Source: Opitutia bacterium (GTDB lineage: Bacteria > Verrucomicrobiota > Verrucomicrobiia > Opitutales > Opitutaceae). Taken from it: DNA of 34,137 nucleotides. Within the stretch, counting starts at the first letter, position 1, and each line of letters begins with the position of its first letter. The translations under genes and the position numbers were made by a program. The DNA lies in the NCBI GenBank assembly GCA_003142955.1, contig PLOH01000106.1:34004-68140 (forward strand), in the 5' to 3' direction. Under the pieces are notes generated by a model. That model had not been told where the DNA came from, did not search any database, and saw nothing but the letters and a program-made list of their open reading frames with translations. Below, in pieces: positions 7,059-31,321 of the stretch.

Positions 7059-7967
7059 CTACGGGAGCATTCCGCCGACGCAGAGCGTGGGCGCGGGCGC
7101 TTGGCGCCATTCAACGCGGGTGAGTTCCATGGCGCCGTCGCCAGTGGCCACGACCAAAGGATCGAGGCAGAGGAGTTCGCCAGGCTGGCCGCGGCGGCCC
7201 TGGGTGGCGATCGATTTGGGTTCGGCCCACCACACCATCAGCCGGGCGGAGCCAACGTCGACAAACGCGCCGGGGTAGGGGTCCGTGACCGCGCGGATGA
7301 GATTGAAGATCTGCCGGCTGGTTTGGGACCACGCGATGCGTCCGTCCTCGGGCTTGCGTCCACCGAAATACGTTGCCTGTGATTCGTCCTGCGGGGTTTC
7401 CTTGGCGCTGCCGGAAAGAAGCGCGTCGATTTGCCGCTCAATCACGCGGCGTCCGCAGGGCAGCACTTTGCGGAACGCCACTTCCGCCGAATCGCGCGGA
7501 CCGATGTCGACGCCTTCCTGGTCGACGATGGCTCCCGCGTCCGGCGCCTTGACCATGCGATGGAGCGTCATCCCGATGCGAGTTTCGCCGTGCAGCACGG
7601 CCCAGTTGATCGGCGCGCGGCCGCGATATTTCGGCAGGAGGGAACCGTGGAGGTTGAACGCGCCGAGCCGCGGCAGGGCGAGGATCTTCGAGCTGATCAT
7701 GTTCCGGTAATACACCGACAGGATCAACTCGGGCTGCAGCGCGACAATCCGCTCGATCCAGTCAGGCGTGTTGACCGTATCCGGCGTGTGCACCGGGATG
7801 CCGGCGGCCCGGGCGGTCACTGCCGGCGTTTGGAACCAGATCTTCTCGTGCGGATTGTCCTCGTGCGTGATCAGCGCAACCACGTTGTCGCCGCGGGCGC
7901 GCAGGAGTTCAAGGCAGGCATGGCCCACCTCACTGTAGCCGAAAAAAAGGATGCGGGGCTTAGTCAC
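7059..7967 (-). CDS. arnA: UDP-L-Ara4N formyltransferase (N-terminal half of ArnA as a separate gene)
   Basis: A formyltransferase of the ArnA/Fmt family that uses 10-formyl-tetrahydrofolate to N-formylate UDP-L-Ara4N before transfer to undecaprenyl phosphate. The catalytic stretch is NLHGSLLPKYRGRAPINW, with the asparagine and histidine, followed by LHRMVKAPDAGAIVDQ, which has the active-site aspartate. A C-terminal Fmt-like domain follows, with AVTDPYPGAF. The longest frame begins at an ATG at 8006, 32 bases inside arnC. The GTG at 7967, just after the arnC stop, better matches the start of ArnA, which begins almost directly with the first beta strand. I report the GTG and regard the choice as uncertain. 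E. coli ArnA fuses this domain to the decarboxylase. Confidence 0.92.
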   Translation of the reverse strand: MTKPRILFFGYSEVGHACLELLRARGDNVVALITHEDNPHEKIWFQTPAVTARAAGIPVHTPDTVNTPDWIERIVALQPELILSVYYRNMISSKILALPRLGAFNLHGSLLPKYRGRAPINWAVLHGETRIGMTLHRMVKAPDAGAIVDQEGVDIGPRDSAEVAFRKVLPCGRRVIERQIDALLSGSAKETPQDESQATYFGGRKPEDGRIAWSQTSRQIFNLIRAVTDPYPGAFVDVGSARLMVWWAEPKSIATQGRRGQPGELLCLDPLVVATGDGAMELTRVEWRQAPAPTLCVGGMLP

Positions 7968-7974
7968 GGGGGCA

Positions 7975-8928
7975 TCACTCTTTCGTCTCCAGGATCTCCC
8001 GGACAAAATAGCGCTGGCGGGCGCGGACGACCTGGTAGGTGCGGCCGACGTATTCGCCGATGAGGCCGATGCCGACCATGGCCACGCTGATTAGAAAGAA
8101 CAAGACGGCAAACAGGGTGAACACGCCGAAGGTTTCGCGGTCCAGGTTGAACACAAAGCGACGCCACAGCAGGACTCCCACGAGCGCCATGCTGCCCGCC
8201 GCACAGCCCATCGCGAACAGGGTGAACGCCTGCAGCGGCGCCAGCGAGAAGCCGGTGATGAGGTCGAAATTGAGCCGGACAAGCTGGTAGAAGGAATAGT
8301 TGGATACGCCGGCATGCCGCTCCTCATGCTTGACGCCCACCTCCGCCGGATGGCTGGAGAAGCTGTATGCCAGCGCCGGGATGAAGGTGTTGATCGCGCC
8401 GCTGCGCACGATCGCCTCGATCACGGGCCGGCGGTAGGCGCGCAACATGCAGCCCTGGTCGGTCATCTCGATGTTCGTCGTCTTGCGGCGCACGAAATTG
8501 ATGAGTTTCGAGGCCCACCTGCGGAAGACCGAGTCTTGCCGGTTCAGCCGGTAGCCGCCGACGTAGTCGTGGCCCGACTCAATCTTCTCCAACAGCTTCG
8601 GAATCTCTTCCGGAGGATTCTGCAGATCGGCGTCCAGCGTCACAATCACTTCGCCCCGCACCCGCTCGAACGCCGCCATGACGGCCATGTGCTGGCCATA
8701 GTTCGCATTAAAATCGATGACCCGCGTGACCTCCGGCCGCGCCGTGTATTGAGTGCGGAGTAGCTCGAAGGAGCGGTCGCCGCTGCCGTCATTGGTGAAG
8801 ATGATCTCGTAACGCCGGCTGAGTGCGTCGAGCACGGGATAGAGGCGGCCGAAGAGCAGGGGCAAGTTCGCCTCCTCGTTGTAGACGGGAATGACGACGG
8901 AAAGGAAGATTGGAGAAGGAGAAGACAC
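7975..8928 (-). CDS. arnC: Undecaprenyl-phosphate 4-deoxy-4-formamido-L-arabinose transferase ArnC
   Basis: A GT2-family membrane glycosyltransferase of 317 residues that moves L-Ara4FN from UDP to undecaprenyl phosphate. Motifs are VVIPVYNEEANLP at about 11-23, NDGSGD near 46-51, NANYGQHMAV, the metal-binding LDADLQNPPEEIP and the acceptor-side QGCMLRAYRR. Two transmembrane helices follow at about 235-255 and 270-295, then GEYVGRTYQVVRARQRYFV, all as in ArnC. It lies between arnB (142-base gap) and the formyltransferase gene (short gap or overlap, depending on the start). The related enzyme polyisoprenyl-phosphate hexose synthase is the alternative, but the neighbours settle the call. Confidence 0.93.
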   Translation of the reverse strand: MSSPSPIFLSVVIPVYNEEANLPLLFGRLYPVLDALSRRYEIIFTNDGSGDRSFELLRTQYTARPEVTRVIDFNANYGQHMAVMAAFERVRGEVIVTLDADLQNPPEEIPKLLEKIESGHDYVGGYRLNRQDSVFRRWASKLINFVRRKTTNIEMTDQGCMLRAYRRPVIEAIVRSGAINTFIPALAYSFSSHPAEVGVKHEERHAGVSNYSFYQLVRLNFDLITGFSLAPLQAFTLFAMGCAAGSMALVGVLLWRRFVFNLDRETFGVFTLFAVLFFLISVAMVGIGLIGEYVGRTYQVVRARQRYFVREILETKE

Positions 8929-8975
8929 GGGATGATACCAAGCAAAACTAGCAGGATCGCGGATGGATTTGAATG

Positions 8976-9040
8976 TGGAAATCAGGAAAGTCGGAACGAC
9001 CCCTTCACGTTTGGATTATGCCCGGAGTTCCTGATTTCCA
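8976..9040. repeat. Inverted repeat in the arnB-arnC gap
   Basis: A perfect 13-base inverted repeat, TGGAAATCAGGAA at 8976-8988 and its complement at 9028-9040, with a 39-base loop. It occupies most of the 142-base gap between the arnB stop and the arnC start. It is not of the GTAG type and I see no second copy in the window. It could be an attenuating or stabilising structure in the arn mRNA. Confidence 0.6.
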
Positions 9041-9070
9041 TATAGGGATTTCGAAGAAAGGGCTTCGGCG

Positions 9071-10240
9071 TCAGCGCGTTGTCCGCTTCTGATGGGCTTC
9101 CAGAATGCCGACCAAGCCCGTAACCACTCGCGTGACATCCGCCGACGTCATCGCGGGAAAAAGCGGGAGCGTCAGGATATTGCGGCCGGCGTATTCGGCG
9201 TGCGGATAATCGCCGGCTTTCCAGCCCAGCCGCCGGTAGAGCGCAAACAGATGGATCGCGGGGTAATGCACGCCGGTGCCAATACCAGCGGCATGCAGCA
9301 ATGCCATGACCTCGGCCCGCTTGATGGACAGCCGCTCCCCGGGCAGCACGACCTGGAACATGTGCCAGTTGCTCTGGGTGAAGTCCGCGATCGGCAGCCG
9401 CAGCCCGAGCGCAGTCGCAGAAGAAGCGGCAAACGCCGCAAAGTAATCCCGGGCCAGTTCGCGGCGCCGGGCGGTGAATTCGGCGAGGTGCGGAAGCTGC
9501 CCAAGGCCGACCCGGGCGGCGACGTCGGTGAGGTTGAACTTGCCGCCGACGACCTCGACTTCCATGCCATCGTAGCCCGATCGGACCACCCCCTGCAGGC
9601 GATACTGCTCGGCCAGCTTCGCTTCGCGCTCGTCGTTCAGCACGAGGCAGCCGCCTTCCGTGGTGGTGATGTTCTTGTTGGCGTGAAAGCTGAAGGAGAC
9701 CAGATCGCCGACGGCTCCGATGCGCTGGCCGCGCCATTCGCTGCCGAACGACTGCGCTGCGTCCTCCACCACCCGGAGTTGATGTTTCTTTGCCAGGGCG
9801 TAGAGCCGATCGCGGTCGACCGGCAGACCGGACAGATCGACCGGGATGATCGCACGCGTCGCCGGTGTGATCGCCGCCTCGACGCGGTCCAAGTCGATAT
9901 TCCGGGTGACGGGGTCAATGTCGACGAAGACGGGGCGGGCGCCGACTTCGAGGACCACATTGCTCGTCGCGACCCACGTCAGCGGCGTAGTGATCACCTC
10001 GTGTCCCGGTCCGACACCAGCAATGCGCAGCGCAATCTCCAGCGTGGCCGTGCCCGAATTGAGCGCCCGCACCGGGCGGCCGCCGACGTACTCGGACAAT
10101 CGGGCCTCGAAGGCCTTGACGTGCGGCCCGGAGGTAATCCAACCCGAGCGCAAAACCTCGGCCACGCCGGCGATGGTCTCGTCGTCGATCGTGGGACGGG
10201 TGAACGGCAGAAAATCCTTTGGCGCGGCAGGAGCGGTCAT
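9071..10240 (-). CDS. arnB: UDP-4-amino-4-deoxy-L-arabinose aminotransferase ArnB
   Basis: A PLP enzyme of the DegT/DnrJ/EryC1/StrS family, 389 residues, that transfers an amino group from glutamate to UDP-4-keto-pentose. The internal-aldimine lysine is K189 in SFSFHANKNITTTEGG, almost the Salmonella ArnB position (K188). VVEDAAQSFGS at about 157-167 carries the cofactor aspartate. NSGTATLEIAL near 61-71 binds the phosphate, and GVHYPAIHLF is late in the protein. Another sugar aminotransferase of the same family is possible on sequence alone, but the run of arn genes makes ArnB very likely. It overlaps the end of arnT by four bases (ATGA), so the two are translationally coupled. Confidence 0.93.
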   Translation of the reverse strand: MTAPAAPKDFLPFTRPTIDDETIAGVAEVLRSGWITSGPHVKAFEARLSEYVGGRPVRALNSGTATLEIALRIAGVGPGHEVITTPLTWVATSNVVLEVGARPVFVDIDPVTRNIDLDRVEAAITPATRAIIPVDLSGLPVDRDRLYALAKKHQLRVVEDAAQSFGSEWRGQRIGAVGDLVSFSFHANKNITTTEGGCLVLNDEREAKLAEQYRLQGVVRSGYDGMEVEVVGGKFNLTDVAARVGLGQLPHLAEFTARRRELARDYFAAFAASSATALGLRLPIADFTQSNWHMFQVVLPGERLSIKRAEVMALLHAAGIGTGVHYPAIHLFALYRRLGWKAGDYPHAEYAGRNILTLPLFPAMTSADVTRVVTGLVGILEAHQKRTTR

Positions 10241-16893: not shown

Positions 16894-19800
16894 TTAGTTT
16901 TCCGCCCGGATCAAATCGCAATCGGTTCGGCTCGGCAGGCCGGTCCCCGCCCGGAGATAGATCTCATCGATGACCTCGGGACGATAGTGGCGGTCGACGA
17001 AGCGTTGACCGCTCTCCCCCATGGTCTGGCGCGTGGCCGGGTCGTCCAACATCTTGATCGCCGCCCGAAATTCCGCTTCGTCCCGGTATGCCAGCCCGCC
17101 TCCTGACCGGCGGCACTGACCCGCCAGAACCGCGGAGTTTCCGTTGACCAGGACGGCTTTGCGGACCGCCCAGGCTTCGAGCAGAACGAGCGAAAGGCTC
17201 TCGAATAGCGAGGGCATGACCAGGAACTCGCAGGCCGCCAGCGCGTCCCACTTCTCCTGTTCCGATACGAACCCGGGGGCGATGATGTCGGCGTGGTCAG
17301 GAATCTCCATCGCCGCTTTTCCAAGCAGCACCAACTTTCGTGGGGTGGATTCCGATTGGCGGAGGCGAATAAAATATTCCCACAGCTGATCGCAGCCTTT
17401 GGATTGATCAATCCGGCCGAGATAGAGGAGAAAAGGCTCCTCCACCTGGAAACGGTGGCGAAACCGATCGCCATTGAGATCCACTGGGGCCGTCACGGGA
17501 ATTCCGGCCACCGGACCGTCGATGGGCAGCGTGGGGAAGCGCTGTTGGGTAAAGGTCTTCTCCTCAATGGTGTTGAAGATAAAGGCCCGCGGCTGGGCAA
17601 ACCAACGGTCCCACATCGGGAAATAGATTGGCCATTCGTCGTGAACCGTCGGCACCAGCACCGCCCGGTCGGCGACGAGGGGCAGACCGAAATAGCTGGT
17701 GCAATAAAGATAGGTGAAGAAAAAGAACCGCTCATAGTTCAGCTGGTTGGCGGCCAGGTAATCGAACAAGGCCGGGCACCACGGGCCTTGTTGCTTCATC
17801 CAAGCCTCTCCATCAGCGATGGAGGTCGAGGCAATGCTCGGGCGCAAGCGGACTGACAACTGGTTGAACGATTGCGAATCGCGCGGTTGCTCGACGGGGA
17901 ACCGGCGAATCACCACATCATCCACCGCCTCCGTTCCCGGAGGGAAGTCATTCGCCCAGGTCACGTAGTCCAGGGCGCAAGTGGTGAGAATCTCGACCTG
18001 CCAGTGGGCGGCCATCCGAGTCGCGATCTGGAGGCAGAGCGACTCCGAGCCGCCGTTGACCTCGCGCCCGGCGCGCTGCACAACAAACGCCACCCGGGGC
18101 TTGCTCCGCGCCTCCCGAGAAGACGGCCCAGGCAGGCTGGAGTCGGTTGCCAGAGATGCGCCGACTTGAGCGCTGCCCGCTCTCCGCGCCTCCAGACTCC
18201 GGAGGATCATGGCTTCGACCTGATCGACGCTGACAGACTGGATGCAACGGCAGAGGGGAGGGGGGTTGGCGGCGCGGTCCTGGTCCAGGCTGGAGCAAGG
18301 ATCCGGACAAAATTCTCCGCTGCAGCTCCAGCTGATGGAACTGACCGGGGCGAATTCCCGCTGGGCGGGGGGCCGCATAAAGTGGACGACCGGAATGCCG
18401 ACCGCAGCCCCGATGTGGATCTGGGCACTATCACTGGCCACGAGGCAGCCCACCCGTGACAGGTAGGCTGCCAGCTCGACGAGATCGAGGCGCCCGCACA
18501 GGTCATTTACCGCCACTTCGGGCTCCCAGCCGGCGATCAACTTCCGGTCGGCGGCGGAGCCAACCACCGCCACGACGTAACCACGCCGGCGAAGCCGGCG
18601 GGCCAGTTCGCGAAATTTAACCGGCGCCCAGCGGTCGATCGCCAGCCGTGCGCCGGGGGCCAAGACGATCGTATTCCGGCGCGGCCGGCCGACCGTTTCC
18701 GCCCGGGCCGAGTCCTCCGCGGAAAAATAGACCACCGGACCACTCCAGGCATCAGCCCCGATGCTGCGGAGCAGCGCTTGGTGCTTATGGCAAACATGCT
18801 GTTCCGGCGGCCAGGCCACGGCGTGGGTGATCAGGTGGTCATGATCGGAATCATGCTGGTGGGAGAGGAGGTACCGGTGGGGAAGGACGCTGGCCAGCTG
18901 CAAGCTGGCGTCATAATTGTTCGAATACAGATGGACCACGAGGTCGAAGGGGCAGTCGAGCAGTTCGCGCAGGTTCCGGGAATTTCGGGCGGCCCGATCC
19001 CGGCTGAAACACGGATCGGAAACCTCGCCTCGGTCCCAGGGAGGGTCGTACGGAACCACCCGGTCCACATACGGATTGCGCCGCAGGATGTCCGCGGACC
19101 CCGGGGACACCACCGCGGTAATCCGAGCCTCGGGAAAACGCTGTTTTAGGCTGTGGAAGGTCGGGCTGGCCAGCAGTAGGTCGCCCATCGGGTCGAGCTT
19201 GACGACGGCGATCGCGCGCACGTCAGTGAGGGCTGGCGCGGCTGCCGCCGGGCCGGACGGGATGCCGATGCGGCGGCGCTGGACTCGCCGGACGAGCCGT
19301 AGCAGTTGTGCTTTCACCAGAACCGGCAAAAAGGCTTCCCGCCTCCGGCGTTGGGTAAAGAGCACCATCGCGCGCCGCCAGGGATTATGCACCAGTTGGT
19401 AGGCGATCCGGGCGAGTTCCTCCGGATCCGCCTTGGATCGAAAAAGCACTCCTGCTCCGTCAAGGGTCTCCGGGACGGCCCCGGCGGCGAAGGCGAAGAC
19501 CGGAACATCGAACCACATGGCCTCGATCAGCGGAACGCAAAATCCCTCGTGTTCACTCATGCTCCAAAACAAACGGGCGGAGCGATAATAGGAGGCGAGA
19601 CGGGCGTCATCGATCATCCCGGTGAACTCAACCGCTCCGGACAGGCCAAGCTTCTCAACCAGTCTCCGGAGGCAGGCATGGTAGGGTTCGTCCGCCATCA
19701 GCGGCGTGCCGACCAGATGCAGCACCGCGGTTGGATCCAGTTTTCGAAAATGAAAGAAGGTGAAGATAAGGTCCTCGTGTCGCTTGTTCGGAGCCAGGCG

Positions 19801-21612
19801 CCCGACAAAAAGGAGGTGGGTTCTCCCATCCTGCAATTCGCGCATCAAGCCGGGGTCCGGAACCTGATTCAACCTGGCCGGGTCGACCGCGATCGGCAGC
19901 ACATCGGGATCGCGAAAGCCGGCTTCGGCCAGCTCGGCCGCATTGAACCCGGAATCTCCAACCGAATCCGGGAAATGGCTGGCGAGTCCCGGCAGTTGGT
20001 CCCGGCCTTCCGCGCAAATCCGGACGTGGTGGGGCAGATAGTGCTCAAAGAAACGGTGGGGCGTGATGTTGTGGTAGATCAGCGCCTTTGGCCCGGGGTG
20101 CGCGCAGGCGTCGTCCGTGATTACGCTGCCGATGGCGTGGTGATAAAGCAGGGTGGCGGTGGCAGAGATCTTGCCGGGAGCCCAGGGCAGAACCTCGGTC
20201 CGCACCCTCGGGTCAATGCCGTTGGCGTAGACTTCAGAATCATAACCGGCTTGTCGGAGCACCCGTTTGATCCACAGTATTTCGTTGGAAATGGCGTCGC
20301 CATAGGACATGCAGGGCACCACCTGATGGACGGAGCCCAGCTCGGTGTCGGACGGAGATTCCATCGGGTCGACCAACTCGCGAATCGCGGCCTCATAGCG
20401 GGAGATAGCCGTCTCCCAGTCGCCGTATTCCTGGGCGTATACCCGACCGGCGGCGCCCAGTGCGGCCATCTCTTCCGCTGCCGCGCGATCGACGCGGACA
20501 AACGCATCCATCCAGGCCCCTTCGCTCCCGGCCAGCCATCCTCCGCCACTGTCCAGCACCGCCGCGGCGGTAGCCAAACAGTCCGCATGAGCTACGATCG
20601 GGCGGGCGTAATGCCAGGCTTCCATCAACACCCTGGAGTAGCTCTCGTTGACGCTGGGATTGAACAAGGCAACGCAGCCCGCCAACAGCCGGTGTTTGTC
20701 GGCTTCGGAGACGGCTCCGAGGTCCTGGATGCCGGTGCGGTCGGCGGGGAGCACCATCTCTCCGGCTCCGGCCAGCCCCAGTTTGAGGCCAGAATTCGGA
20801 TTCCCGGCGCGGAAGGTGGAATAAGCCCGGGCGATCAGGTCGGTGTTCTTACCGGCGTCCTGCCTGGCCAGGCATAACACGAAGCGCCCCAATACTCCAA
20901 GATCGACTGTCTGGTCGCCGGCGACCACAGCGGGAATCTCCACGCCGGCTCCGGCCACGCTGCTCCGGGAACATCCGCCGAAGCCGAAGATATGCGTGGC
21001 AAGTCGGGCCTCCCCCTCTGAGAGGAAAAGGACGCGTCGCGCCTGCGCAAAGGCCGCCGCCACCAACGGAAGGTAAGCATAGGACTCGTGATGCAGGCAT
21101 GGAATCAGGATCGATCGCTTGGCGACAAGCGGCAGTCCGCGCAGAGTGGTAAAATAGAGATAGGGCAGAAACAGAAATGCGGTGTAGTCCTCCCCCCGGC
21201 CTCGGAGATGGTCGAGCAAGGCGGGACAACTTACGAGCCGGTCGACAAAGAGGCTTTCTTGCTCGGCACTCAGCGGAGGCGGACCGGGCGACACGCCGTT
21301 CTTCACCAGCGCAGCAAAGGTTGCGCAGATCTTGTGGAACTCCTCCCGCTCACAAGGCAGCACCGGGAAGCGCCGGACGGCAAACCCCTCCGGTTCCTCG
21401 GTCAGTCCGGCCGGCAGATGGTTTTCGGACCAATGATGCTGAAACGATCGGCAGCACGTGGTGATTACTTCGATGCGGTGGCCGCGCTTGGCGAGACGGG
21501 TCGCGAGTTCCCAGGCGTGACGTTCGGCCCCGCCGGGAAGCTCACGACCGAACCACGGAATGACAATGCCAATGGGCTTTTCGACGAGAGGCATGCGCAA
21601 AGCGTCAGGCAT
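16894..21612 (-). CDS. 1572-residue four-module glycosyltransferase (GT4-GT4-GT9-GT4)
   Basis: One continuous frame with four GT-B glycosyltransferase modules. Module 1 (about 12-415): IPWFGRELPGGAERHAWELA and the GT4 pair E323/E331 in NESYSRVLMEAW. Module 2 (about 428-770): LLFVGRLAPNKRHEDLI and E689/E697 in HEGFCVPLIEAM. Module 3 (about 798-1140) is GT9, heptosyltransferase-like: VVKLDPMGDLLLASP (803-817) and ASDSAQIHIGAAVGIPVVH (1059-1077), with a cysteine-rich insert CSGEFCPDPC...CRC (1097-1123). Module 4 (about 1172-1555): a VNGGSESLCLQIA start and E1471/E1479 in FESLSLVLLEAW. Modules 1 and 4 resemble each other through their length, so they look like a duplication. It lacks a signal peptide and transmembrane helices, so it should act at the inner face of the membrane and build several linkages of one repeat unit. 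Its ATG overlaps the end of the preceding methyltransferase gene by eight bases; the ATG at 21594 is an alternative. Confidence 0.93.
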   Translation of the reverse strand: MPDALRMPLVEKPIGIVIPWFGRELPGGAERHAWELATRLAKRGHRIEVITTCCRSFQHHWSENHLPAGLTEEPEGFAVRRFPVLPCEREEFHKICATFAALVKNGVSPGPPPLSAEQESLFVDRLVSCPALLDHLRGRGEDYTAFLFLPYLYFTTLRGLPLVAKRSILIPCLHHESYAYLPLVAAAFAQARRVLFLSEGEARLATHIFGFGGCSRSSVAGAGVEIPAVVAGDQTVDLGVLGRFVLCLARQDAGKNTDLIARAYSTFRAGNPNSGLKLGLAGAGEMVLPADRTGIQDLGAVSEADKHRLLAGCVALFNPSVNESYSRVLMEAWHYARPIVAHADCLATAAAVLDSGGGWLAGSEGAWMDAFVRVDRAAAEEMAALGAAGRVYAQEYGDWETAISRYEAAIRELVDPMESPSDTELGSVHQVVPCMSYGDAISNEILWIKRVLRQAGYDSEVYANGIDPRVRTEVLPWAPGKISATATLLYHHAIGSVITDDACAHPGPKALIYHNITPHRFFEHYLPHHVRICAEGRDQLPGLASHFPDSVGDSGFNAAELAEAGFRDPDVLPIAVDPARLNQVPDPGLMRELQDGRTHLLFVGRLAPNKRHEDLIFTFFHFRKLDPTAVLHLVGTPLMADEPYHACLRRLVEKLGLSGAVEFTGMIDDARLASYYRSARLFWSMSEHEGFCVPLIEAMWFDVPVFAFAAGAVPETLDGAGVLFRSKADPEELARIAYQLVHNPWRRAMVLFTQRRRREAFLPVLVKAQLLRLVRRVQRRRIGIPSGPAAAAPALTDVRAIAVVKLDPMGDLLLASPTFHSLKQRFPEARITAVVSPGSADILRRNPYVDRVVPYDPPWDRGEVSDPCFSRDRAARNSRNLRELLDCPFDLVVHLYSNNYDASLQLASVLPHRYLLSHQHDSDHDHLITHAVAWPPEQHVCHKHQALLRSIGADAWSGPVVYFSAEDSARAETVGRPRRNTIVLAPGARLAIDRWAPVKFRELARRLRRRGYVVAVVGSAADRKLIAGWEPEVAVNDLCGRLDLVELAAYLSRVGCLVASDSAQIHIGAAVGIPVVHFMRPPAQREFAPVSSISWSCSGEFCPDPCSSLDQDRAANPPPLCRCIQSVSVDQVEAMILRSLEARRAGSAQVGASLATDSSLPGPSSREARSKPRVAFVVQRAGREVNGGSESLCLQIATRMAAHWQVEILTTCALDYVTWANDFPPGTEAVDDVVIRRFPVEQPRDSQSFNQLSVRLRPSIASTSIADGEAWMKQQGPWCPALFDYLAANQLNYERFFFFTYLYCTSYFGLPLVADRAVLVPTVHDEWPIYFPMWDRWFAQPRAFIFNTIEEKTFTQQRFPTLPIDGPVAGIPVTAPVDLNGDRFRHRFQVEEPFLLYLGRIDQSKGCDQLWEYFIRLRQSESTPRKLVLLGKAAMEIPDHADIIAPGFVSEQEKWDALAACEFLVMPSLFESLSLVLLEAWAVRKAVLVNGNSAVLAGQCRRSGGGLAYRDEAEFRAAIKMLDDPATRQTMGESGQRFVDRHYRPEVIDEIYLRAGTGLPSRTDCDLIRAEN

Positions 21613-23299
21613 TGTGCGCGACTACGGCATAATCCTGCGGGCCGTAGAAAAAGCCATTGAACCGATCGGCGAGCGCAGAGGGATCGGCCACCCGATGCTC
21701 CGAGCTATATGGATGCAGCAGCAACGTCTTGGCGTCTTTGAAGCCGGCATGTTCGACCGAAAAGGACAACAGCAGGGGAGGAACGGGGGAACGGTGGGTC
21801 GGATCCAGGTGAAAACTCTGGCTCGCCACGAGCAGATTGCCGCAGTTGGGCGTCTCCATCATGAGCAGGCCGCCGGGTTCCAGCACGCGGCGGGCCTCGC
21901 CCAGGATCGCGAGCAGGACGAGAAACGGCAGATGCTCCACCAGGTGCAGCGCCGTAACCGCGGCGAGCGACCGGTCCGGCTGCCGACGGAGGAAGTCCAG
22001 GGCATCCGCCTGCTCCACCGGCAAGCCGCGCTGGCGGCAGAGAGCGATCATCTGGGCGCCATGGTCCACGCCCATCGCCCCGGTCGCGCCGGCATCGAGC
22101 AACAACTGGAGCCATTCGCCGCGACCGCAACCCAGGTCGATCAGGCGGGCGCCCGGTCGCTGGCCGCGGAGTACGCCGAGCATTTCGAGATAGGGCAGGT
22201 AGATCTTCTGGCGCGAAGCGATTTCCTCTTGCGAACCGCGATAGCGGTCCTCGAACGCCAGGTAAAATCGCTCGAACGCGGGTTTGGCCGCGGCGTCGGC
22301 CTCGTCTCCAACGGAAGACCACGCAGAGGTGCGGTCCGCGAGCGCTCGCTGCAAAGCGGGGATGACCGCCTCGACCGCGAGAATGCGGGAGGCGAACGAC
22401 CCCAACCCCGGGCTGCTGGGCGCGGCGGCAACCCGCTCGGACTCCATCGCCTGGAGTCGTTGGTCAAGCAGGTGCAGCGCCGAGGCGAATTCCGCTGCTG
22501 GCAAGGCGGAACCGGCCTCCGCCACCTGGGCGGCCAACAACGCCACTTGGGCGCGAAAGGAGCCCAGGGTCTCTTCGTAGTCCCGCTGCTGGCGCATCGC
22601 CCGCGACTGCAGATCGGCGAGGGCGCTCTTGGCGCTGCCGATCTGGGCGTGGTTTTCCGTTTCGGCCTGCGCCAGTCGGGCCACCAGCGCCGCAAGTTCT
22701 CCCGCGAGAGCCTGCTGGTGGCGCAGCGCCTGCGCCTGCAGATCCGCGAGGGCGTCGTTCGTGGTGGCGTGATGGGTGACGTTCTCCTGCTCCTGCTTCT
22801 CCTGCTGGGCGCGGAGTGCCGCCAGCTCGGCCTGGATTACGTCCGAGGTTCGTGCCTGGAGCTGCTCAATTCTCGTCAGGTGCTCAGCTGCTCTGGCTTG
22901 TACCCGCCCGAGCGCAGCGAGGTCGCCGCGGTTTTCATTGGCCAGTTGATCGAACCGCAGTACGCGACGGAGCAGGTCGTCATAGCGTTCGGCTGACGCC
23001 TGGTCGTGTTCGCTAACCGTGGCCTCGGAGGCGCGCAGAGCGTTGCGGAGACTTACGGTGAGCAACTCAAGACGCGCGGCTTGACGGCGCGTTGCCTCGA
23101 GGGTTTCCCGGTCACGTGCTGCCTCCTTCCCCAGGGCGGACAGGGCGGACAGCAAGGTCTTCTCATATCTGGCCTTTCGGGGAAAGACATCGCCGAGCAG
23201 ACGCTCGAACCATGAGCGTTTGCGCCTGAGTTCATTGGCTCTGCGCTCGAGGGCCGCGAACGAGCTGTCTTCCGGCGGAGTCTGGGAATGGGTGGGCAT
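21605..23299 (-). CDS. Coiled-coil SAM methyltransferase, WbdD-like O-chain terminator candidate
   Basis: A 564-residue protein. The first 340 residues are almost all heptad-rich helix (dense A/L/E/Q/R), with a related stretch twice: ALADLQAQALRHQQ (183-196) and ALADLQSRAMRQQR (226-239). A class I methyltransferase follows: FERFYLAFEDRYRGSQEEI (342-360), LIDLGCGRGEW (386-396), then VTALHLVEHLP and VLEPGGLLMMETPN. The FEDRYRGS-to-IYLPYL segment ahead of the SAM site is, to my knowledge, typical of methyltransferases in ABC-exported O-antigen clusters. In E. coli O8/O9a, WbdD caps chain ends and its coiled coil sets chain length. Here the coiled coil is N-terminal and no kinase domain is seen, so function by analogy is only an inference. 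It follows the 180-residue protein gene by 21 bases. Confidence 0.85.
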   Translation of the reverse strand: MPTHSQTPPEDSSFAALERRANELRRKRSWFERLLGDVFPRKARYEKTLLSALSALGKEAARDRETLEATRRQAARLELLTVSLRNALRASEATVSEHDQASAERYDDLLRRVLRFDQLANENRGDLAALGRVQARAAEHLTRIEQLQARTSDVIQAELAALRAQQEKQEQENVTHHATTNDALADLQAQALRHQQALAGELAALVARLAQAETENHAQIGSAKSALADLQSRAMRQQRDYEETLGSFRAQVALLAAQVAEAGSALPAAEFASALHLLDQRLQAMESERVAAAPSSPGLGSFASRILAVEAVIPALQRALADRTSAWSSVGDEADAAAKPAFERFYLAFEDRYRGSQEEIASRQKIYLPYLEMLGVLRGQRPGARLIDLGCGRGEWLQLLLDAGATGAMGVDHGAQMIALCRQRGLPVEQADALDFLRRQPDRSLAAVTALHLVEHLPFLVLLAILGEARRVLEPGGLLMMETPNCGNLLVASQSFHLDPTHRSPVPPLLLSFSVEHAGFKDAKTLLLHPYSSEHRVADPSALADRFNGFFYGPQDYAVVAHNA

Positions 23300-23320: not shown

Positions 23321-23863
23321 CTAGAGCAGGTACCCGGTCAACGTTCCCAGTCCAATCGCCAATTTCCTCTGGTCGGCGCTGAGGCCCGCTTGATAGGGGC
23401 TGATGGCATTCGGAAACCGGAGGACCAGGCGGAGGGTGCCTCCCGGCGCTTGCGCGGGCGGGACTAGCACAGCGGTTTCGCCGGGCTCTGCGACGGAAAC
23501 CAATCCAATCAAACGATGTTCGTCGGCAATCTTGATGATCTGTTCAGGGACGCCAGGCGGACAAAAAGGGACCAGCGACAAACGCAGCAGCATCTCTCGG
23601 CGGGGCGGTGGCGCCTCAATTTCGATGGTCGCTTGTAGGCCCTCGGACCACGTGAAATCAACCTCGGGAAAACTCCAGCCGGAGACCAGCAGGTGGCTCC
23701 ATGGATCGCCTTTGCGGAAGTGCACCGGGTGTCCCCAGCGCCAACCCGGAACCCCGGCTGGCGCGGCAGGCTCGGGTGGCTCTGCCGGGGCAAGAGCCAC
23801 CTCGATGACCTCGCGGCGGATCTGTGCCATCAATTCATCTGCAGCAGCGATTGGGGGAGGCAT
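23321..23863 (-). CDS. Stand-alone copy of the Wzt C-terminal beta domain
   Basis: A 180-residue soluble protein. An N-terminal helix, ADELMAQIRREV (8-19), resembles the leader of many polysaccharide-cluster enzymes. After a proline/alanine linker, the main domain (about 55-178) aligns by eye with residues 438-556 of the Wzt-like ATPase in the same operon: SGWSFPEVDFTW with GGWCVPERGHCW, PFCPPGVPEQ with PFLPPGSAAQ, and RFPNAISPYQAGLSADQRKLA with RLPGAASPVSVGISNDARVLA. No catalytic residues are evident. A glycan-binding or structural beta-sandwich is the best guess. I know of no named function. Confidence 0.8.
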   Translation of the reverse strand: MPPPIAAADELMAQIRREVIEVALAPAEPPEPAAPAGVPGWRWGHPVHFRKGDPWSHLLVSGWSFPEVDFTWSEGLQATIEIEAPPPRREMLLRLSLVPFCPPGVPEQIIKIADEHRLIGLVSVAEPGETAVLVPPAQAPGGTLRLVLRFPNAISPYQAGLSADQRKLAIGLGTLTGYLL

Positions 23864-23920
23864 GATTCTGAAGGAATAGTCACATGACCAGCGTCAGTGG
23901 ACGGCTGCCAGTGTCCACCT

Positions 23921-24877
23921 TCAAGCGGAAACCCGCAGGGTGAGCTTTTTCGAGAAACAGCCCGGCAGTTCATCGAACCAGAACCTTCCTTCCTGAACCA
24001 GCGACAGGTGCAACGTGTATCGGCCCGGCAGCAGCGGGGCGTCCAGGAGCATCGTCTGGGTGATGGCACCTGCCGGGGGGATTGGGCTGTCCAGGCGCGT
24101 GCGCCGGCCATCGTGGGTGATCGCCGTGAGGTCGTCGTCGCTGTTCACATGGTAGCTTAGCACGACAGGGTAGGGCGGACTGGAGGCAATCCACCGATCG
24201 GAGAGGTTCGTGATCCGGACGGGCAATTCTACCATGGCGCCGGGCTTCGCCTGCAGGGTATCGTCGCGATGGTTGTCACCCTGCGGTTCGATCGCGGCTT
24301 TTGCCTGCTCCGACGGCAACGGCGCCATCCAGGAACTATTCCGGGTCTGCCGCCATTCTGCCGCGTTCGCCTGCACCGGGAGGAACAGAATCCCGGTGAA
24401 TTCGGGCAGCCACGGATTATGCACGTCGAAGCCGCAGACGGCCTCGCGGGAGAAAAAACAAGGCAGCGGGTCCGGAGGGCCGCCCCAACATTGGAGATTG
24501 ATGGTGAAACGTCCCGGAGCGAAATTGACAGGAAAGACCAGGCGAACTTCGGTGGAAACTCCCGGGGACAGTTTCAGGTCAAGACCGAGGTGTTTGGTGC
24601 TGGTGGCGAACACGACCTGCCCGAGGCGGTCGGCGAGCCCGATCCACACGGAGCAGGCGGTGCATTCGACCTCGCTGAAGAGCAAGACCGTCAGGACGAC
24701 GGATTCACCGGAGGCGAAGCGCCCCTCCCGGCCGTCTCGCGCCGCCAAGCGAGTGCCGATAAGCTGCACGCCGGTGGCCAAACTGGGCGAAGAACCGAGC
24801 GGCGCCGCCGGTTCGGTCTCGGCCGAATTCGCAGCCGGGATGTTGCCCTTGGGGGGAGAGGATTCTGGCGGTATCAT
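23921..24877 (-). CDS. Two-domain beta-sandwich protein, Wzt C-terminal-like plus associated domain
   Basis: A 318-residue protein with no signal peptide. Domain 1 (about 35-155) looks like the Wzt C-terminal O-antigen-binding fold: GVQLIGTRLAARDGREG, FASGESVVLTVLLF, LADRLGQVVFATSTKHLGLD, then a strand pair ending FAPGRFTINLQCWG. Domain 2 (about 210-318) is a separate beta domain: KPGAMVELPVRITNLSDRW, PVVLSYHVNSDD, LLPGRYTLHLSLVQEGRFWF. Domains like it are often attached to glycosyltransferases of surface-glycan clusters. Its ATG follows the Wzt stop by two bases, so it should be co-translated with Wzt. A role in recognising the finished chain for export is plausible but inferred. Confidence 0.82.
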   Translation of the reverse strand: MIPPESSPPKGNIPAANSAETEPAAPLGSSPSLATGVQLIGTRLAARDGREGRFASGESVVLTVLLFSEVECTACSVWIGLADRLGQVVFATSTKHLGLDLKLSPGVSTEVRLVFPVNFAPGRFTINLQCWGGPPDPLPCFFSREAVCGFDVHNPWLPEFTGILFLPVQANAAEWRQTRNSSWMAPLPSEQAKAAIEPQGDNHRDDTLQAKPGAMVELPVRITNLSDRWIASSPPYPVVLSYHVNSDDDLTAITHDGRRTRLDSPIPPAGAITQTMLLDAPLLPGRYTLHLSLVQEGRFWFDELPGCFSKKLTLRVSA

Positions 24878-24879
24878 GG

Positions 24880-26577
24880 TCAGCGCGATCCGCCCAACGG
24901 ATGAAACGCGATCCGCCGGAACGCCAGCGCGAGGACTCGCGCATCATTGCTAATGCCGACTGACACGGGGCTGGCGGCTCCCGGCAGACGCCACCACAGA
25001 ATCGATTCGCCCGTCCCAGACCGGAGCGCCACCGGGATCTCGGCCTCGGCCAACATAGGTCGTGCAATTGCCCATTCGGCCAGCACGGATTTGCCGCAAC
25101 CGACCTGCACCTGCTGCGCGGCACTTCCGGGCGGAAGGAATGGGAACACGTCAGCGATCAACCGGGCGCCGCTCCCGGCAGGGAGGCGAACCGCCAGGCG
25201 CGATTCCCGGCCTTGGGTCCAACAATGGCCTCGTTCCGGAACGCACCAGCCGCCAACCTGAAAACGCTGGGCATTGCCGGTATCAGAGAAGTCAATCGGT
25301 TGGTTCCACTGGCAGTCGCGCGTGAGCAGCCTGACTTGATCGGATACCTCGACCGTGGTGCCCAGTGCGGCAACGCCGGTAAAGGCGAATGGCCAGTGCG
25401 GCACGACGGTGAACGCCAGCAAGTTGTCACACCAGTCATAGTTCCCCTCGCGGTGATCCGTACCTGCGTGGATCGCCAGGGTGATGGAGTAGTTGCCGGG
25501 GCCCAGATTAGCCGGAAGGGAAAAGGCCACTTCCATGGATTCGCCCGCCGCGTAAGTCCGCGTGGCGAGGCCCAGGTTGAGCGTGTTGGTCCCAAAGACA
25601 TCATTGCCGAGACGGTCGCGGATCAGAAAACCCACGGTCGGGGCGGCGACGTTCTGCCTGAACTCGACGGCGCACGCGATCCGAACGGTGGCCCCACACA
25701 GCACGGCGCGAACCGACCGGCCGGCGGCGTCGAGGAGATCGAAGCGCTCGAGCGTGGCCCGGCCGTTGCCTGACCTCGTTTGACGTTGGCCACCGGTCGT
25801 TTCTGTAACGCGAATCTCGTGCTCCCGCTCCTTGGCGGCGATCAGGGCGTTGTAGTAATCCAGTACGTCGGAAGGGACTCCTTCACGAACGACCATGCCG
25901 CGATCAAGCAGAATGGCGTAATCGCAAAAAGTCTTCACCGCATTGGGATCATGGGAGACAAAAAACAGGCTACGGCCTTCCTCTCGAAACTGTCGCAACA
26001 GGCGGGCGCATTTGTGGGCGAAGTAGGCGTCCCCGACGGACAGTACCTCATCGATGATCATCAGGTCGGGTCGCACCTGGGTCAGCAAGGCGAAGGCCAG
26101 CCGCACCCGCATGCCGCTGGAATACGTGCGCATCGGCTGGCGGAGAAAGGCGCCGATCTCAGCGAATTCTTCGATCTCACCGAGATGACCGTCAATGAGA
26201 CTCCGGGGCAAACCGAGAATCGAGGCGCTTAGATAGAGATTCTCCAGGCCGGTGAAATCATCATTGAAGCCCGCCCCCAGATCCAGCAACGCCAACACCC
26301 GTCCGGAAACCATTACCGTGCCCTCGCTCGGGGTGAGCGTGCCCGCGATCATTTGCAGCAACGTCGATTTGCCCGCGCCATTGAGGCCGATGATGCCGAT
26401 GCTGACGCCCTTGGCGATCGACAGGTTAACCCCCCTCACGGCCCAGAAATCGCCGTATTGTTTCCCGACGTTGGTCGCCTGAACAGCGAGGCCACAGCCG
26501 CCGGCATTCGGCTGGGCGGATTCTCTTGTCGTGGTCGGGTGGGCGCGAGGCGTGGCCCTGAACAGATCGAGCAGCAT
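24880..26577 (-). CDS. Wzt-like O-antigen ABC exporter ATPase with two C-terminal domains
   Basis: A 565-residue protein in three parts. The ABC ATPase (about 30-255) has Walker A GLNGAGKST (64-72), signature YSSGMRVRLAFA (152-163), Walker B LMIIDEVLSVGD (172-183) and switch FVSHD (206-210), all of the Wzt/TagH subgroup. The Wzt C-terminal domain (about 270-395), a beta-sandwich that binds the end of the O-chain in E. coli O9a, has VGFLIRDRLGNDVFGTNT and GPGNYSITLAIH. A further domain (about 435-560) is shared with the 180-residue protein of this operon. Typical Wzt is about 400-430 residues, so the last domain is extra. It is the first gene of the operon. No Wzm permease gene lies beside it or elsewhere in the window. 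Confidence 0.92.
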   Translation of the reverse strand: MLLDLFRATPRAHPTTTRESAQPNAGGCGLAVQATNVGKQYGDFWAVRGVNLSIAKGVSIGIIGLNGAGKSTLLQMIAGTLTPSEGTVMVSGRVLALLDLGAGFNDDFTGLENLYLSASILGLPRSLIDGHLGEIEEFAEIGAFLRQPMRTYSSGMRVRLAFALLTQVRPDLMIIDEVLSVGDAYFAHKCARLLRQFREEGRSLFFVSHDPNAVKTFCDYAILLDRGMVVREGVPSDVLDYYNALIAAKEREHEIRVTETTGGQRQTRSGNGRATLERFDLLDAAGRSVRAVLCGATVRIACAVEFRQNVAAPTVGFLIRDRLGNDVFGTNTLNLGLATRTYAAGESMEVAFSLPANLGPGNYSITLAIHAGTDHREGNYDWCDNLLAFTVVPHWPFAFTGVAALGTTVEVSDQVRLLTRDCQWNQPIDFSDTGNAQRFQVGGWCVPERGHCWTQGRESRLAVRLPAGSGARLIADVFPFLPPGSAAQQVQVGCGKSVLAEWAIARPMLAEAEIPVALRSGTGESILWWRLPGAASPVSVGISNDARVLALAFRRIAFHPLGGSR

Positions 26578-28391: not shown

Positions 28392-29321
28392 TCACTTTGG
28401 CTGCGTGAGCGGGGCGCTGCCGTTGGCGGCATTGGATGCTGGAGGAGCAGGGAGTGACGCCGGGGAATCCGTCCGCTGAGACGTGGCCCGGGGTTCCGGC
28501 GGGCGGGCGGGCGGCGCGGCAAACGCGCCGGCCGCTTCCTTGGCGTGGGCGGCCTTGTTCAATTCGATTTGCTTGAGCAGTTCCATGCTGCGCTTCCGCG
28601 CCACGAGGGCTTTTTGGTTCCCCAGGCGGCGCTCAAGCCGGGCGCAATACTTCACCGCAACCTGGTCTCCCGAAATGGCGCTGAGGTTAAACCATGCCAA
28701 TGCTTCGATCTCGTTCTTTCGCACGCCCTCGCCGCCAGCATACATCACCCCAACGTTAAACTGGGCGACGACATCTCCATGTTCGGCCGCCTGGCGATAC
28801 CATTTCACCGCCTCCGCCAGGTTTTTCTCCACGCCCGTGCCACTGCAATAAATGTCACCGAGGTCGTACAGGGCTGTGGCGTTTCCTTGCTCGGCCGCCT
28901 TGCGCAACCACCTCACGGCTTCCTTCGGATCCTGGGCGATGCCCTGGCCGAGGGAATAGCTGACGCCGAGGTTGCATTGGGCGTCGGTATCGCCTTGTTC
29001 GGCCGCCTGGCGATACCATTTGACGGCTTCCGCCGGGTCTTTGACCACGCCTTCCCCGTTGGCAAACATCACGCCAAGATAGGCCTGGGCGGCGGCGTTT
29101 CCTTGCGCGGCGGACTTACGGACCCATTTGACTGCTTCATCACTGCTTTTGGTTAAGCCGGCGCCGCTGGCATACAACAGGCCAAGTTCGTATTGTGCCT
29201 TGGGGTCGCCTGCTTCGGCCGTCATCCGCAGGGCGTCGATCCCTGATTCAGTCGGCGCGGCAGCGACGATGCCCAAGACGCACGCAAAGAAAATCACCAC
29301 AGAACCCGGGAGTAACTGCAT
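28392..29321 (-). CDS. Exported Sel1-repeat (SLR/TPR-like) protein
   Basis: A 309-residue protein. From the ATG at 29321 there is a signal peptide (MQLLPGSVVIFFACVLGIVAAA), then five 36-residue Sel1 units, for example AQAYLGVMFANGEGVVKDPA with AVKWYRQAAEQGD, over about residues 40-225. A short helical region with many K/E residues follows, then a proline/alanine/serine-rich tail. Sel1 arrays bind proteins and often serve as adaptors of envelope systems. The start lies 19 bases after the protease stop, so the two genes are probably one operon. Neighbouring repeat units remain very alike at the DNA level. The start at 29405 would overlap the protease gene and is rejected. Confidence 0.9.
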   Translation of the reverse strand: MQLLPGSVVIFFACVLGIVAAAPTESGIDALRMTAEAGDPKAQYELGLLYASGAGLTKSSDEAVKWVRKSAAQGNAAAQAYLGVMFANGEGVVKDPAEAVKWYRQAAEQGDTDAQCNLGVSYSLGQGIAQDPKEAVRWLRKAAEQGNATALYDLGDIYCSGTGVEKNLAEAVKWYRQAAEHGDVVAQFNVGVMYAGGEGVRKNEIEALAWFNLSAISGDQVAVKYCARLERRLGNQKALVARKRSMELLKQIELNKAAHAKEAAGAFAAPPARPPEPRATSQRTDSPASLPAPPASNAANGSAPLTQPK

Positions 29322-29340
29322 GGATCCGGCTGAGGAGCTA

Positions 29341-31005
29341 TTAGGGCGTCGGCTTGTGGTTCCAGACCGCCAGGAGATCGGGCGATCCCTGGCTGCGAAT
29401 GCCATTATCGGTCAGAATGTCATCCGTGGCGGCGATGGTCGCCGCCCGTGGCAGAATGAGGGTCTCCGTGTAATGGCCGGCAAACTCGATCTTGACGAAC
29501 TCGTCCTTCGAATCCCGCAGGGTTTCGACCAGGTGCCGAAGGTTTTTGATCGCGACGCCGTTGACGGCCGAGACGATCCGACCGGCCGGATTGCCATAGC
29601 CCTTCACCAGTTTGTGGGGCAGGAATGGTGCTGGGACGACCACCAGCTCCTCTCCATCAAACGAAGGCTTTTCACTGCGCCGGGTGATGATCGGACTGCC
29701 CACGAGACTAAGGGCGCCGGCCGCCCGGCCGCCCGATGAGCCGTTGATGAACTGACCGACAAGTTCTTCCGTTGCCGTGGAGAAAGCGATTGGCCCGAAG
29801 ATGAAATAGACCGGGTAATTGCCCACCAGGGACGGGATCAGACGGGGCCATTTGGCTGACACCGGCAGTTCGATCTTCTTTGTTTTGCCCTCGCGCACGA
29901 CGGTGAGTGGAACCCTCCCGTCGCGGGCAAGTGTCTGGACAAGATACTTGTAATGCAGCCGCAGGTTTTCGCCGGCCCGAATTTCGCCCTGATCATCCAC
30001 CGGGGTGTCACCGATTTTGGTGACGACATCCCAGCGCTTGAGCGGGTAGCTCGGCGCCCCATTGTAAGGCTCATTCACCACCACGCCTTCGGTCGATTTG
30101 TCGAGCTTGAGGAAGGCCCGGAGCGCGGGATTCTCCAGCGTCTGATAGGAATCAAAACTGGCCGGTTTGCCGTCGTAATGACCGTCGGCCACGTCCTTGA
30201 GGAACAGCTCGATCTCCTCACAGGGCACGATGTACCCGATGTTCTCCGCGCCACCGCCGAGCCGGCTGAAGGCGAGCCCGATCATCTTGTCGCCGGCCAC
30301 CGCGGGGCCGCCGCTGTTGCCGGGGTTGATGGCGGCGTCGATCTGAATCCGCAGCCCGCTGGTGGAATAGTAGTAATTCGTAAAGTCGATCCGGGAGACG
30401 ATTCCCTTGGTGATCGAAAGGTTGGTGCCGCCGGTCGGGAATCCGTACACCATCACGGGATCCTTCACCTGGGGCAGGATGGTGGCGCGCGGCAGCGGGG
30501 CATGGGAGTCAAAGAACGATTCGTCATCGAGCTTGAGCACCGCCAGATCAATGCCGGGGGCGAACGACTCGACGGACGCCGAAAGTTTGTCGCCGGCCTC
30601 GTTGGCCTGAATCTGGATCTGGGTGGCGTATAGGATGACATGGGCGTTCGTGAGAATGCGTTTGCCGTCGATGACCACGCCGCTGCCCGAAATCTCCTGC
30701 GGCGACTGCTTGGTCCATGGCTTGAACACGTCGGGATAGCGCACGGTCGCGAAGACCTTCACCACGGCGTTCTCCACCGCCCGGGACTGGGGGGCACTGG
30801 GTGCCGCCGGACTGGTGGGCGTGGCCGGGGCGGTAGCCGCCGGCGGAGTGGTGACCGCGGGAGCGGTAGTAACCGCCGCCGGGGTGGCGGCCGAATTGTC
30901 CACCGGTTTTTCCGGGGCTCCGAATGAGAGGCGAGGGAAGCCGAGCAAGGTGGTGGCGAGGGCCAGGACGGCAAGGCGGCGGTCGATGCGCAGGGATAGG
31001 TGCAT
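29341..31005 (-). CDS. Exported Deg/HtrA-like trypsin-family serine protease with PDZ-like region
   Basis: A 554-residue protein. A signal peptide covers about 1-29, followed by a proline/alanine/threonine-rich stretch (about 35-75). The protease domain (about 76-270) has the triad H122 in LTNAHVIL, D153 in GIDLAVLKL and S231 in NPGNSGGPAV. PDZ-like segments follow (for example GVVVNEPYNGAPSYPLKRWD and VTKIGDTPVDDQGEI), with a second one near the C-terminus (GNPAGRIVSAVNGVAIKNL). The layout resembles plant Deg9-type and bacterial Deg proteases that act in envelope quality control. The longer frame to 31284 has 93 extra residues that resemble nothing, so I chose the ATG at 31005 in front of the signal peptide. 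It precedes the Sel1 gene by 19 bases. Confidence 0.92.
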   Translation of the reverse strand: MHLSLRIDRRLAVLALATTLLGFPRLSFGAPEKPVDNSAATPAAVTTAPAVTTPPAATAPATPTSPAAPSAPQSRAVENAVVKVFATVRYPDVFKPWTKQSPQEISGSGVVIDGKRILTNAHVILYATQIQIQANEAGDKLSASVESFAPGIDLAVLKLDDESFFDSHAPLPRATILPQVKDPVMVYGFPTGGTNLSITKGIVSRIDFTNYYYSTSGLRIQIDAAINPGNSGGPAVAGDKMIGLAFSRLGGGAENIGYIVPCEEIELFLKDVADGHYDGKPASFDSYQTLENPALRAFLKLDKSTEGVVVNEPYNGAPSYPLKRWDVVTKIGDTPVDDQGEIRAGENLRLHYKYLVQTLARDGRVPLTVVREGKTKKIELPVSAKWPRLIPSLVGNYPVYFIFGPIAFSTATEELVGQFINGSSGGRAAGALSLVGSPIITRRSEKPSFDGEELVVVPAPFLPHKLVKGYGNPAGRIVSAVNGVAIKNLRHLVETLRDSKDEFVKIEFAGHYTETLILPRAATIAATDDILTDNGIRSQGSPDLLAVWNHKPTP

Positions 31006-31321
31006 GGTGGAGTTTTCGGAGACGTTGACGAGGCGAGCCGCGCGGTGCAACCCCTGCCTGGGGCCAGGTGGAAGCGGAGTCACGGTCTTTTGTTTTTGAA
31101 CGAGTCTCGTCTGACATGGGCGGGACGCCCATGGGATCGCGCGACGGCTCCTCAAACCAAAACACCATGGAAGCGGAGCGCCGTCGAAGAATCCCCGCGC
31201 GCAGGGTGACCAATCCAGCCGGGAGAAGAACGGGCGCGGCCCGCCGGTAGCGGTGAGCGCGGCTCGGGACTTGACTCGCCGCAACTCCGCCGCATGAGTT
31301 TGACTAAACAGTTAATCAATC
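31006..31321. other. Divergent promoter region between the protease gene and the TetR operon
   Basis: About 316 bases with no credible gene. It must hold promoters for both directions. A small hairpin, CATGGGC/GCCCATG, is at 31115-31133. A TTGACT at 31271-31276 followed 17 bases later by ATGAGT is a weak promoter candidate for the TetR operon, directly ahead of the operator at 31300-31319. Confidence 0.5.
31300..31319. promoter_or_regulatory. Candidate TetR operator
   Basis: TTGACTAAACAGTTAATCAA is an imperfect palindrome: the half-sites TTGAxTAA and TTAxTCAA mirror each other around ACAG. It ends two bases before the GTG start of the TetR gene, where autoregulatory operators of this family usually lie. 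Bound repressor would block the promoter or early transcription of the whole four-gene operon. Confidence 0.65.

Follow-up and report, generated by a model that had tools for sequence, protein, structure and literature searches.

Why should an operon for an exported glycan carry the same extra domain twice, once on the tail of its exporter ATPase and once as a free-standing small protein? This question is raised by a 34,137-nucleotide stretch of DNA (hereafter the window; positions 34004 to 68140 of contig PLOH01000106.1, our C116) from an Opitutaceae bacterium (Verrucomicrobiota), whose assembly comprises 158 contigs and is 94.31% complete. Three neighbouring open reading frames were confirmed on its minus strand, encoding a Wzt-like ATPase of 565 amino acids (Wzt), a 318-residue protein (P318) and a 180-residue protein (P180), and they are followed by the gene of a putative methyltransferase with a coiled-coil-like N-terminal part (CC_MT). 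A first-pass annotation, made from the letters alone, had proposed that the last domain of Wzt, here called D, recurs as P180. The reading that we favour, with a probability of roughly 0.45, is that the operon would make a capped glycan exported by an ABC transporter, in which P180 would be the sugar-binding subunit of the chain-terminating enzyme.

By comparing the two proteins, we found that D of Wzt (its last ~140 residues) and residues ~42-172 of P180 are homologous. BLASTP aligns P180 42-172 to Wzt 423-553 at E 4e-13, with 27% identity and 2 gaps, and this alignment holds all three residue patterns (GW..PE....W, PF.PPG...Q and P.A.SP..G.S.D.R.LA) that the first-pass annotation had seen in both. 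When P180 was searched against the six-frame translation of the whole genome, the matches were P180 itself and the Wzt tail only, the latter at E 1.8e-11. The Smith-Waterman score of P180 against Wzt is 143, compared with a mean of 35.1 (standard deviation 5.4) and a highest value of 71 for 1000 shuffles of P180. Moreover, the profile-profile comparison proposed as a check on the shared pattern returned significant similarity: a profile of five P180-type proteins and one of nine Wzt tails, built without any common sequence, aligned in hhalign over 144 columns with a probability of 99.9 and E 9.7e-31.

Both copies of D are also predicted to share their fold, a jelly roll whose nearest structural matches are carbohydrate-binding modules (CBMs). 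The AlphaFold2 model of P180, built on 50 aligned sequences (mean pLDDT, the model's confidence score, 89.1), has a helix at residues 5-23, a low-confidence linker and then the beta jelly roll. Foldseek matched it best to a porphyran-binding module (E 1.6e-4) and to BcsB, a subunit of cellulose synthase. On re-alignment, chains of CBM35, CBM6, CBM29, CBM36 and CBM22 scored Z 9-10.5, alongside some non-lectin jelly rolls; against the CBM35 chain 2w3j, D of P180 reaches Z 10.5 with a root mean square deviation (rmsd) of 2.6 over 112 residues. The model of Wzt residues 256-565 (pLDDT 88.3) consists of two domains, of which D (model residues 168-309) matches CBM35, CBM29 and CBM22 chains at Z ~10-11. 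The PDB chains 2w47, 2wys, 4qaw, 5by3, 1w8z and 8j3x appear in the match lists of both models, so that structure prediction, another check proposed at the outset, yielded a common jelly roll and not unrelated folds.

Which partner does P180 have? We found P180-type proteins, each with its own N-terminal extension, in five genera of the family and at five loci, namely the window and those that we call G271, G335, G481 and G453, always at the same spot, with CC_MT as the next gene in 5/5. In G271, G335 and G453, the P180 stop and the likely CC_MT start overlap as ATGA; in G481 the overlap is 10 bases. At its N-terminus, P180 bears the motif ADELMAQIRREV, of which G271 has a near-identical version (VDDLMARIRAEV) and G335 and the rest a looser one. 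In G472 and G036, small D-bearing frames have no CC_MT within the 20 and 16 kb examined, respectively, and were kept out of the P180 count, as was G522, at a contig edge. With regard to the ATPase, Wzt has D in the window, G335 and G271 and is devoid of it in G481 and G453 despite the presence of P180. Conversely, D is found on Wzt without P180 in G156, G243, G469, G466 and G013, where CC_MT still adjoins Wzt, while in G429 the contig ends near Wzt-D. In G271, P180 lies ~22 kb from Wzt yet overlaps CC_MT. In a tree of D domains, P180 of the window does not pair with the Wzt tail of the window, and forcing this pairing costs 17 log-likelihood units (approximately unbiased (AU) test, p 0.022); the data neither establish nor reject a single P180 clade (AU p 0.20), and a single Wzt-D clade is not rejected (p 0.55). 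Since P180 occurs beside Wzts without D, is unpaired with the Wzt tail in the tree and sits directly upstream of CC_MT at every locus, it is not a shed piece of Wzt and probably belongs with the putative writer of the cap rather than with the exporter. On the same grounds, and given its coupling to CC_MT by position and by overlapping starts, the idea of the ATPase as the main partner of the small protein is not supported.

That there would be a cap to write is suggested by Wzt itself. Its best relative in the PDB is the Wzt of Aquifex aeolicus (8dku_A, E 3.4e-86), and the model of its Wzt_C domain superposes on the carbohydrate-binding domain of that protein with bound 3-O-methyl-mannose (8dky_A) at Z 18.6 and rmsd 1.6 over 131 residues. 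In A. aeolicus Wzt (PMC9445017), Asn313, His350 and a pocket formed by Leu300, Thr346, Ala348 and Trp362 grip the methylated terminal sugar, the pocket touching the 3-O-methyl group itself, and His355 contacts the next sugar. The window Wzt keeps 7/7 of these cap-contact residues (Leu300, Asn313, Thr346, Ala348, His350, His355 and Trp362), and because they are conserved, its Wzt_C domain probably reads the methylated chain end.

We then compared the pocket in 52 Wzts, that is 12 from known loci and 40 drawn from among the top matches when 252 genomes were searched for Wzt_C. The pocket was called full when Asn313, His350, His355 and Trp362 were all kept, and CC_MT was scored if it lay on the same strand within the stretch examined. 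A full pocket was present in 13/52 Wzts, and a same-strand CC_MT accompanied 11/13 Wzts with it versus 1/39 without it, although these counts and their Fisher p value ignore relatedness. As the 12 known loci had been found via D, P180 or the window's own genome, the fair test lies in the other 40 Wzts, which were not picked for D or P180: there, CC_MT was found for 3/3 with the pocket versus 0/37 without. The pocket-bearing exceptions are G271, where CC_MT is ~20 kb off in the same cluster, and G429, where the contig ends; the single Wzt that has CC_MT but no full pocket is that of G453. Because the full cap pocket goes with CC_MT, this protein probably writes the methyl cap that Wzt_C would read. 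Its N-terminal 340 residues are long and charged, with 5.9% proline plus glycine, and the coiled coil was judged from composition and heptad contrast only. At the three pocket-bearing loci among the 40, the coil-like stretch comes after the methyltransferase instead of before it, which is the order in WbdD as well. No kinase was found in CC_MT with Pfam.

The third protein, P318, turned out as the first-pass annotation had described it, with a Wzt_C-like domain (Pfam match in Table 1) and another domain and no ATPase. Its domain 1 matches the carbohydrate-binding domain of A. aeolicus Wzt (6o14_A) at E 1.5e-9. However, at positions 300, 313, 346, 348, 350, 355 and 362 it has Gly, Ser, Asn, Gln, Trp, Asp and Ser, so the compared pocket contacts are lost and P318 is unlikely to be a second cap reader of the Wzt kind. 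Its C-terminal domain is predicted to be immunoglobulin (Ig)-like and weakly resembles Wzt_C (hhalign probability 70%, 32 columns); that it might be a further copy of D was ruled out (hhalign probability 0.8 against D). This C-terminal domain recurs in G453 (E 5.6e-13), where it ends a two-methyltransferase protein placed just before P180, as P318 is in the window, and in G429 (E 8.1e-6), where it lies in a truncated gene directly preceding Wzt. The matches in 251 other genomes of the family included no protein of the P318 type, in which Wzt_C lacks an ATPase and is joined to an Ig-like end: the N-terminal part of P318 matches Wzt-like frames and its C-terminal part the ends of other proteins. 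Counting Wzt_C and D of Wzt, the Wzt_C-like and Ig-like domains of P318, and D of P180, the three proteins have five beta-domains, in line with the "at least four" first proposed.

Taking these observations together, we suggest the following scheme. The polysaccharide made by the operon in the cytoplasm would be finished with a cap and then exported through the ABC transporter. CC_MT would put a methyl group on the chain end and thereby halt growth, and Wzt_C of the ATPase would recognise the methylated end through its conserved contact residues. D on the Wzt tail would be a second, CBM-fold module gripping another part of the same chain. P180, the same module as a separate soluble protein, would most likely dock on CC_MT with its N-terminal helix and, as a glycan-binding subunit in trans, enable the terminator to grip the chain itself; P318, with its Wzt_C fold and without ATPase or cap pocket, is probably a further accessory binder. 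The proposal that the modules bind different parts or states of the chain thus holds in one half. Different parts are very likely, but the capped end would most likely be read by Wzt_C, whose pocket is intact, and not by D. A more tentative extension, which we consider rather doubtful, is that the related modules on the terminator (P180 in trans) and on the exporter (Wzt-D, fused) hand the finished chain over via the same internal glycan feature, the cap being checked separately by Wzt_C and P318 being a third, non-cap reader. If true, handover with a separate cap check would amount to a two-signal quality check for export.

How well does this scheme stand against others? P180 could instead be a subunit of the exporter, its D pairing with Wzt-D or binding the chain for Wzt, as the same domain in the same operon and the gene orders Wzt-P180 in G335 and Wzt-P318-P180 in the window might suggest; the D-less Wzts that accompany P180 in G481 and G453, the ~22 kb between P180 and Wzt in G271, where P180 overlaps CC_MT, and the rejected sisterhood of the two window domains (AU p 0.022) make this unlikely. 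We hold it just as unlikely that the jelly roll of D has a structural or protein-docking role and binds no glycan, P180 being a mere scaffold for the methyltransferase. The matches at Z 9-11 do include non-lectin jelly rolls and the invariant residues could be core residues, yet the top structure matches are mostly carbohydrate-binding modules, and D-type domains are found on glycosyltransferases and other glycan-cluster proteins. Less probable again is that CC_MT methylates internal sugars or some other acceptor and caps nothing, the link between pocket and CC_MT reflecting one inherited operon type. This would fit with the lack of relation to WbdD by sequence and with a Fisher p value that ignores relatedness, but the A. 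aeolicus pocket contacts the 3-O-methyl group itself (PMC9445017), and the pocket goes with CC_MT whichever side of the methyltransferase bears the coil-like stretch. Finally, a shared domain in one operon would also be expected if P180 had recently been copied, or had split off, from the Wzt tail and served no function by itself, a scenario to which we give hardly any credence: P180-type proteins are spread over five genera with their own N-terminal extension and in the same place before CC_MT, and pairing with Wzt-D of the window is rejected at p 0.022.

A number of observations weigh against P180 as the sugar-binding subunit of a terminator. Non-CBM jelly rolls, among them Cry toxin, meprin and reelin, are also found among the structure matches of D, and its conserved residues (G62, W72, P156, D164, R166 and L168) may be structural. 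In G453, P180 and CC_MT are present, yet Wzt does not have the full cap pocket. The P180 and CC_MT genes of the window are separated by 22 bases instead of overlapping. A phmmer search of CC_MT against PDB sequences gave no WbdD entry at E <= 0.01, the best match being 3dli, and neither Wzm nor another ABC2 permease was found on the 68-kb contig C116 of this 94.31% complete assembly. Likewise, an apparent association of P180 with long CC_MT proteins in the first ten loci (445-703 amino acids with P180 versus 261-389 without, one of them cut off) was undone by three P180-less frames of 436, 468 and 778 amino acids.

Beyond these loci, D is, judging by profile comparison, a distant relative of Pfam DUF7024 (PF22895): 8/25 D domains match the DUF7024 model, and a DUF7024 member aligns to the D profile with a probability of 98. 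P180 and Wzt of the window gave no DUF7024 match, and their genome gave none at E <= 1e-6. The D profile is unrelated to the Wzt_C domain in front of D (hhalign probability 0.6) and had no significant match among PDB sequences (best E 0.058). A three-sequence profile found D in 15/286 genomes of the class at E <= 1e-4 and a six-sequence profile in 34/252 genomes of the family at E <= 1e-6, with 0/5 for the other genomes of the window's genus at the latter threshold. The frames that bear D are Wzt tails, ends of membrane-protein-like frames, glycosyltransferase-like proteins and small lipoprotein-like proteins. The last of these occur in G147 (L020:1197-1905 and L040:1197-1908) and suggest that D is used on both membrane sides; no signal peptide was evident by eye in P180 or P318. 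Against named genomes, P180 alone found no relative, and a profile of four close Wzt tails found three loci, Cephaloticoccus included, all with a Wzt-tail domain. A membrane-protein-like frame of C. primus (L046:8439-11321) has three terminal repeats of a WFPREGTADNWWRWT-type domain that is marginally D-like.

Features of the operon are listed in Table 1. A large multi-domain glycosyltransferase follows CC_MT in 4/5 P180 loci (window, G271, G335 and G481), the contig ending in G453, and homologues of the 1572-residue protein behind CC_MT elsewhere have ~1142-1269 amino acids. Wzm-like proteins are encoded on contigs C30 and C39, each beside other ATPases. The former contig has a second ABC glycan exporter (L049:1-5893), with Wzm, Wzt, a methyltransferase and a 758-residue protein with a weak APH-kinase match; the last two are possibly a split WbdD-like terminator. 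This second Wzt can be aligned in two ways at the pocket, and the full residue set is absent either way. Elsewhere in the window, clustered formyltransferase, GT2 and DegT-type aminotransferase genes (7059-10240) point to an N-formylated amino sugar, a protein with a Y1-type (IS200-like) transposase domain lies on the opposite strand within the sugar gene cluster (5970-6944), and a Sel1-repeat protein adjoins a trypsin/PDZ protease (28392-31284).

Table 1. Positions, in window numbering, of the operon features discussed in the text.
Feature	Position	Strand	Basis
Wzt-like ATPase, 565 aa	24880..26577	-	Pfam ABC_tran 48-178 and Wzt_C 266-403
Wzt_C (probably cap-reading) domain of Wzt, residues 266-403	25369..25782	-	Pfam, E 2.6e-35
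Additional domain D at the C-terminus of Wzt, residues ~423-565, predicted CBM-like jelly roll	24883..25311	-	AlphaFold2 model
P318, 318 aa: Wzt_C without ATPase plus C-terminal Ig-like domain (predicted)	23921..24877	-	Pfam
Wzt_C-like domain of P318, residues 39-163	24389..24763	-	Pfam, E 4.7e-13
C-terminal domain of P318, residues ~200-318	23924..24280	-	Sequence comparison alone
P180, 180 aa: free-standing D domain plus short N-terminal helix	23321..23863	-	Homology, AlphaFold2
N-terminal helix of P180, residues 5-23, motif ADELMAQIRREV	23795..23851	-	AlphaFold2, alignment
D domain of P180, residues 42-180	23324..23740	-	Match to CBM35 2w3j
CC_MT: coiled-coil-like N-terminal part (~340 aa) plus class I methyltransferase (~341-564)	21605..23299	-	Methyltransf_23 380-487, E 1.6e-12
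Large glycosyltransferase after CC_MT, 1572 aa, several GT4 and one GT9 (heptosyltransferase-like) domain	16894..21612	-	Pfam

Among the closest known systems is the Wzm/Wzt exporter of A. aeolicus (8dku, 8dky, 6o14), which like the window Wzt has an ATPase and Wzt_C over its whole length, with the key cap contacts conserved. However, the solved protein lacks both a second module at its C-terminus and separate copies, in contrast to D on the tail, P180 and P318 here. In the solved exporter of a capped glycan, the chain reader is a single Wzt_C with its ATPase, whereas the present operon has two kinds of module, one of which recurs free beside a probable capping enzyme. A literature search on Wzm/Wzt in Verrucomicrobia gave nothing related. 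The predicted fold of D matches CBM35, CBM29, CBM6 and CBM36 at Z ~9-11, but identity is mostly 5-12% and D is presumably cytoplasmic here. As for DUF7024 (PF22895), the distant relative of D, P180 itself falls below the cut-off of its model, the Pfam description gives no function, and a literature search for that term found nothing. The WbdD-type terminators of Escherichia coli O9a/O8, with their coiled-coil ruler, join a methyltransferase to a coil beside a cap-reading Wzt, and CC_MT, with a putative coil judged from composition, would work like them; it differs in having no sequence relation to WbdD (E <= 0.01), no kinase match and, in the window, its coil-like part on the N-terminal side. 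Capped systems have also been surveyed by Mann and co-workers (Glycobiology 2019, cited in PMC11231755), and separate modules may have been noted in that survey. The closest precedent is the terminator ORF6 of Klebsiella pneumoniae O7, for which a binding module of its own is predicted in PMC11231755, whose authors state that such a module had been identified in no other terminator; that module is fused and Ig-like, whereas here a separate protein would carry it as a jelly roll resembling CBM35, kin to the second domain of the exporter. The novelty would then lie in having the module in trans and in its relatedness to the second module of the exporter and, if true, how a terminator holds the chain and passes it on becomes testable.

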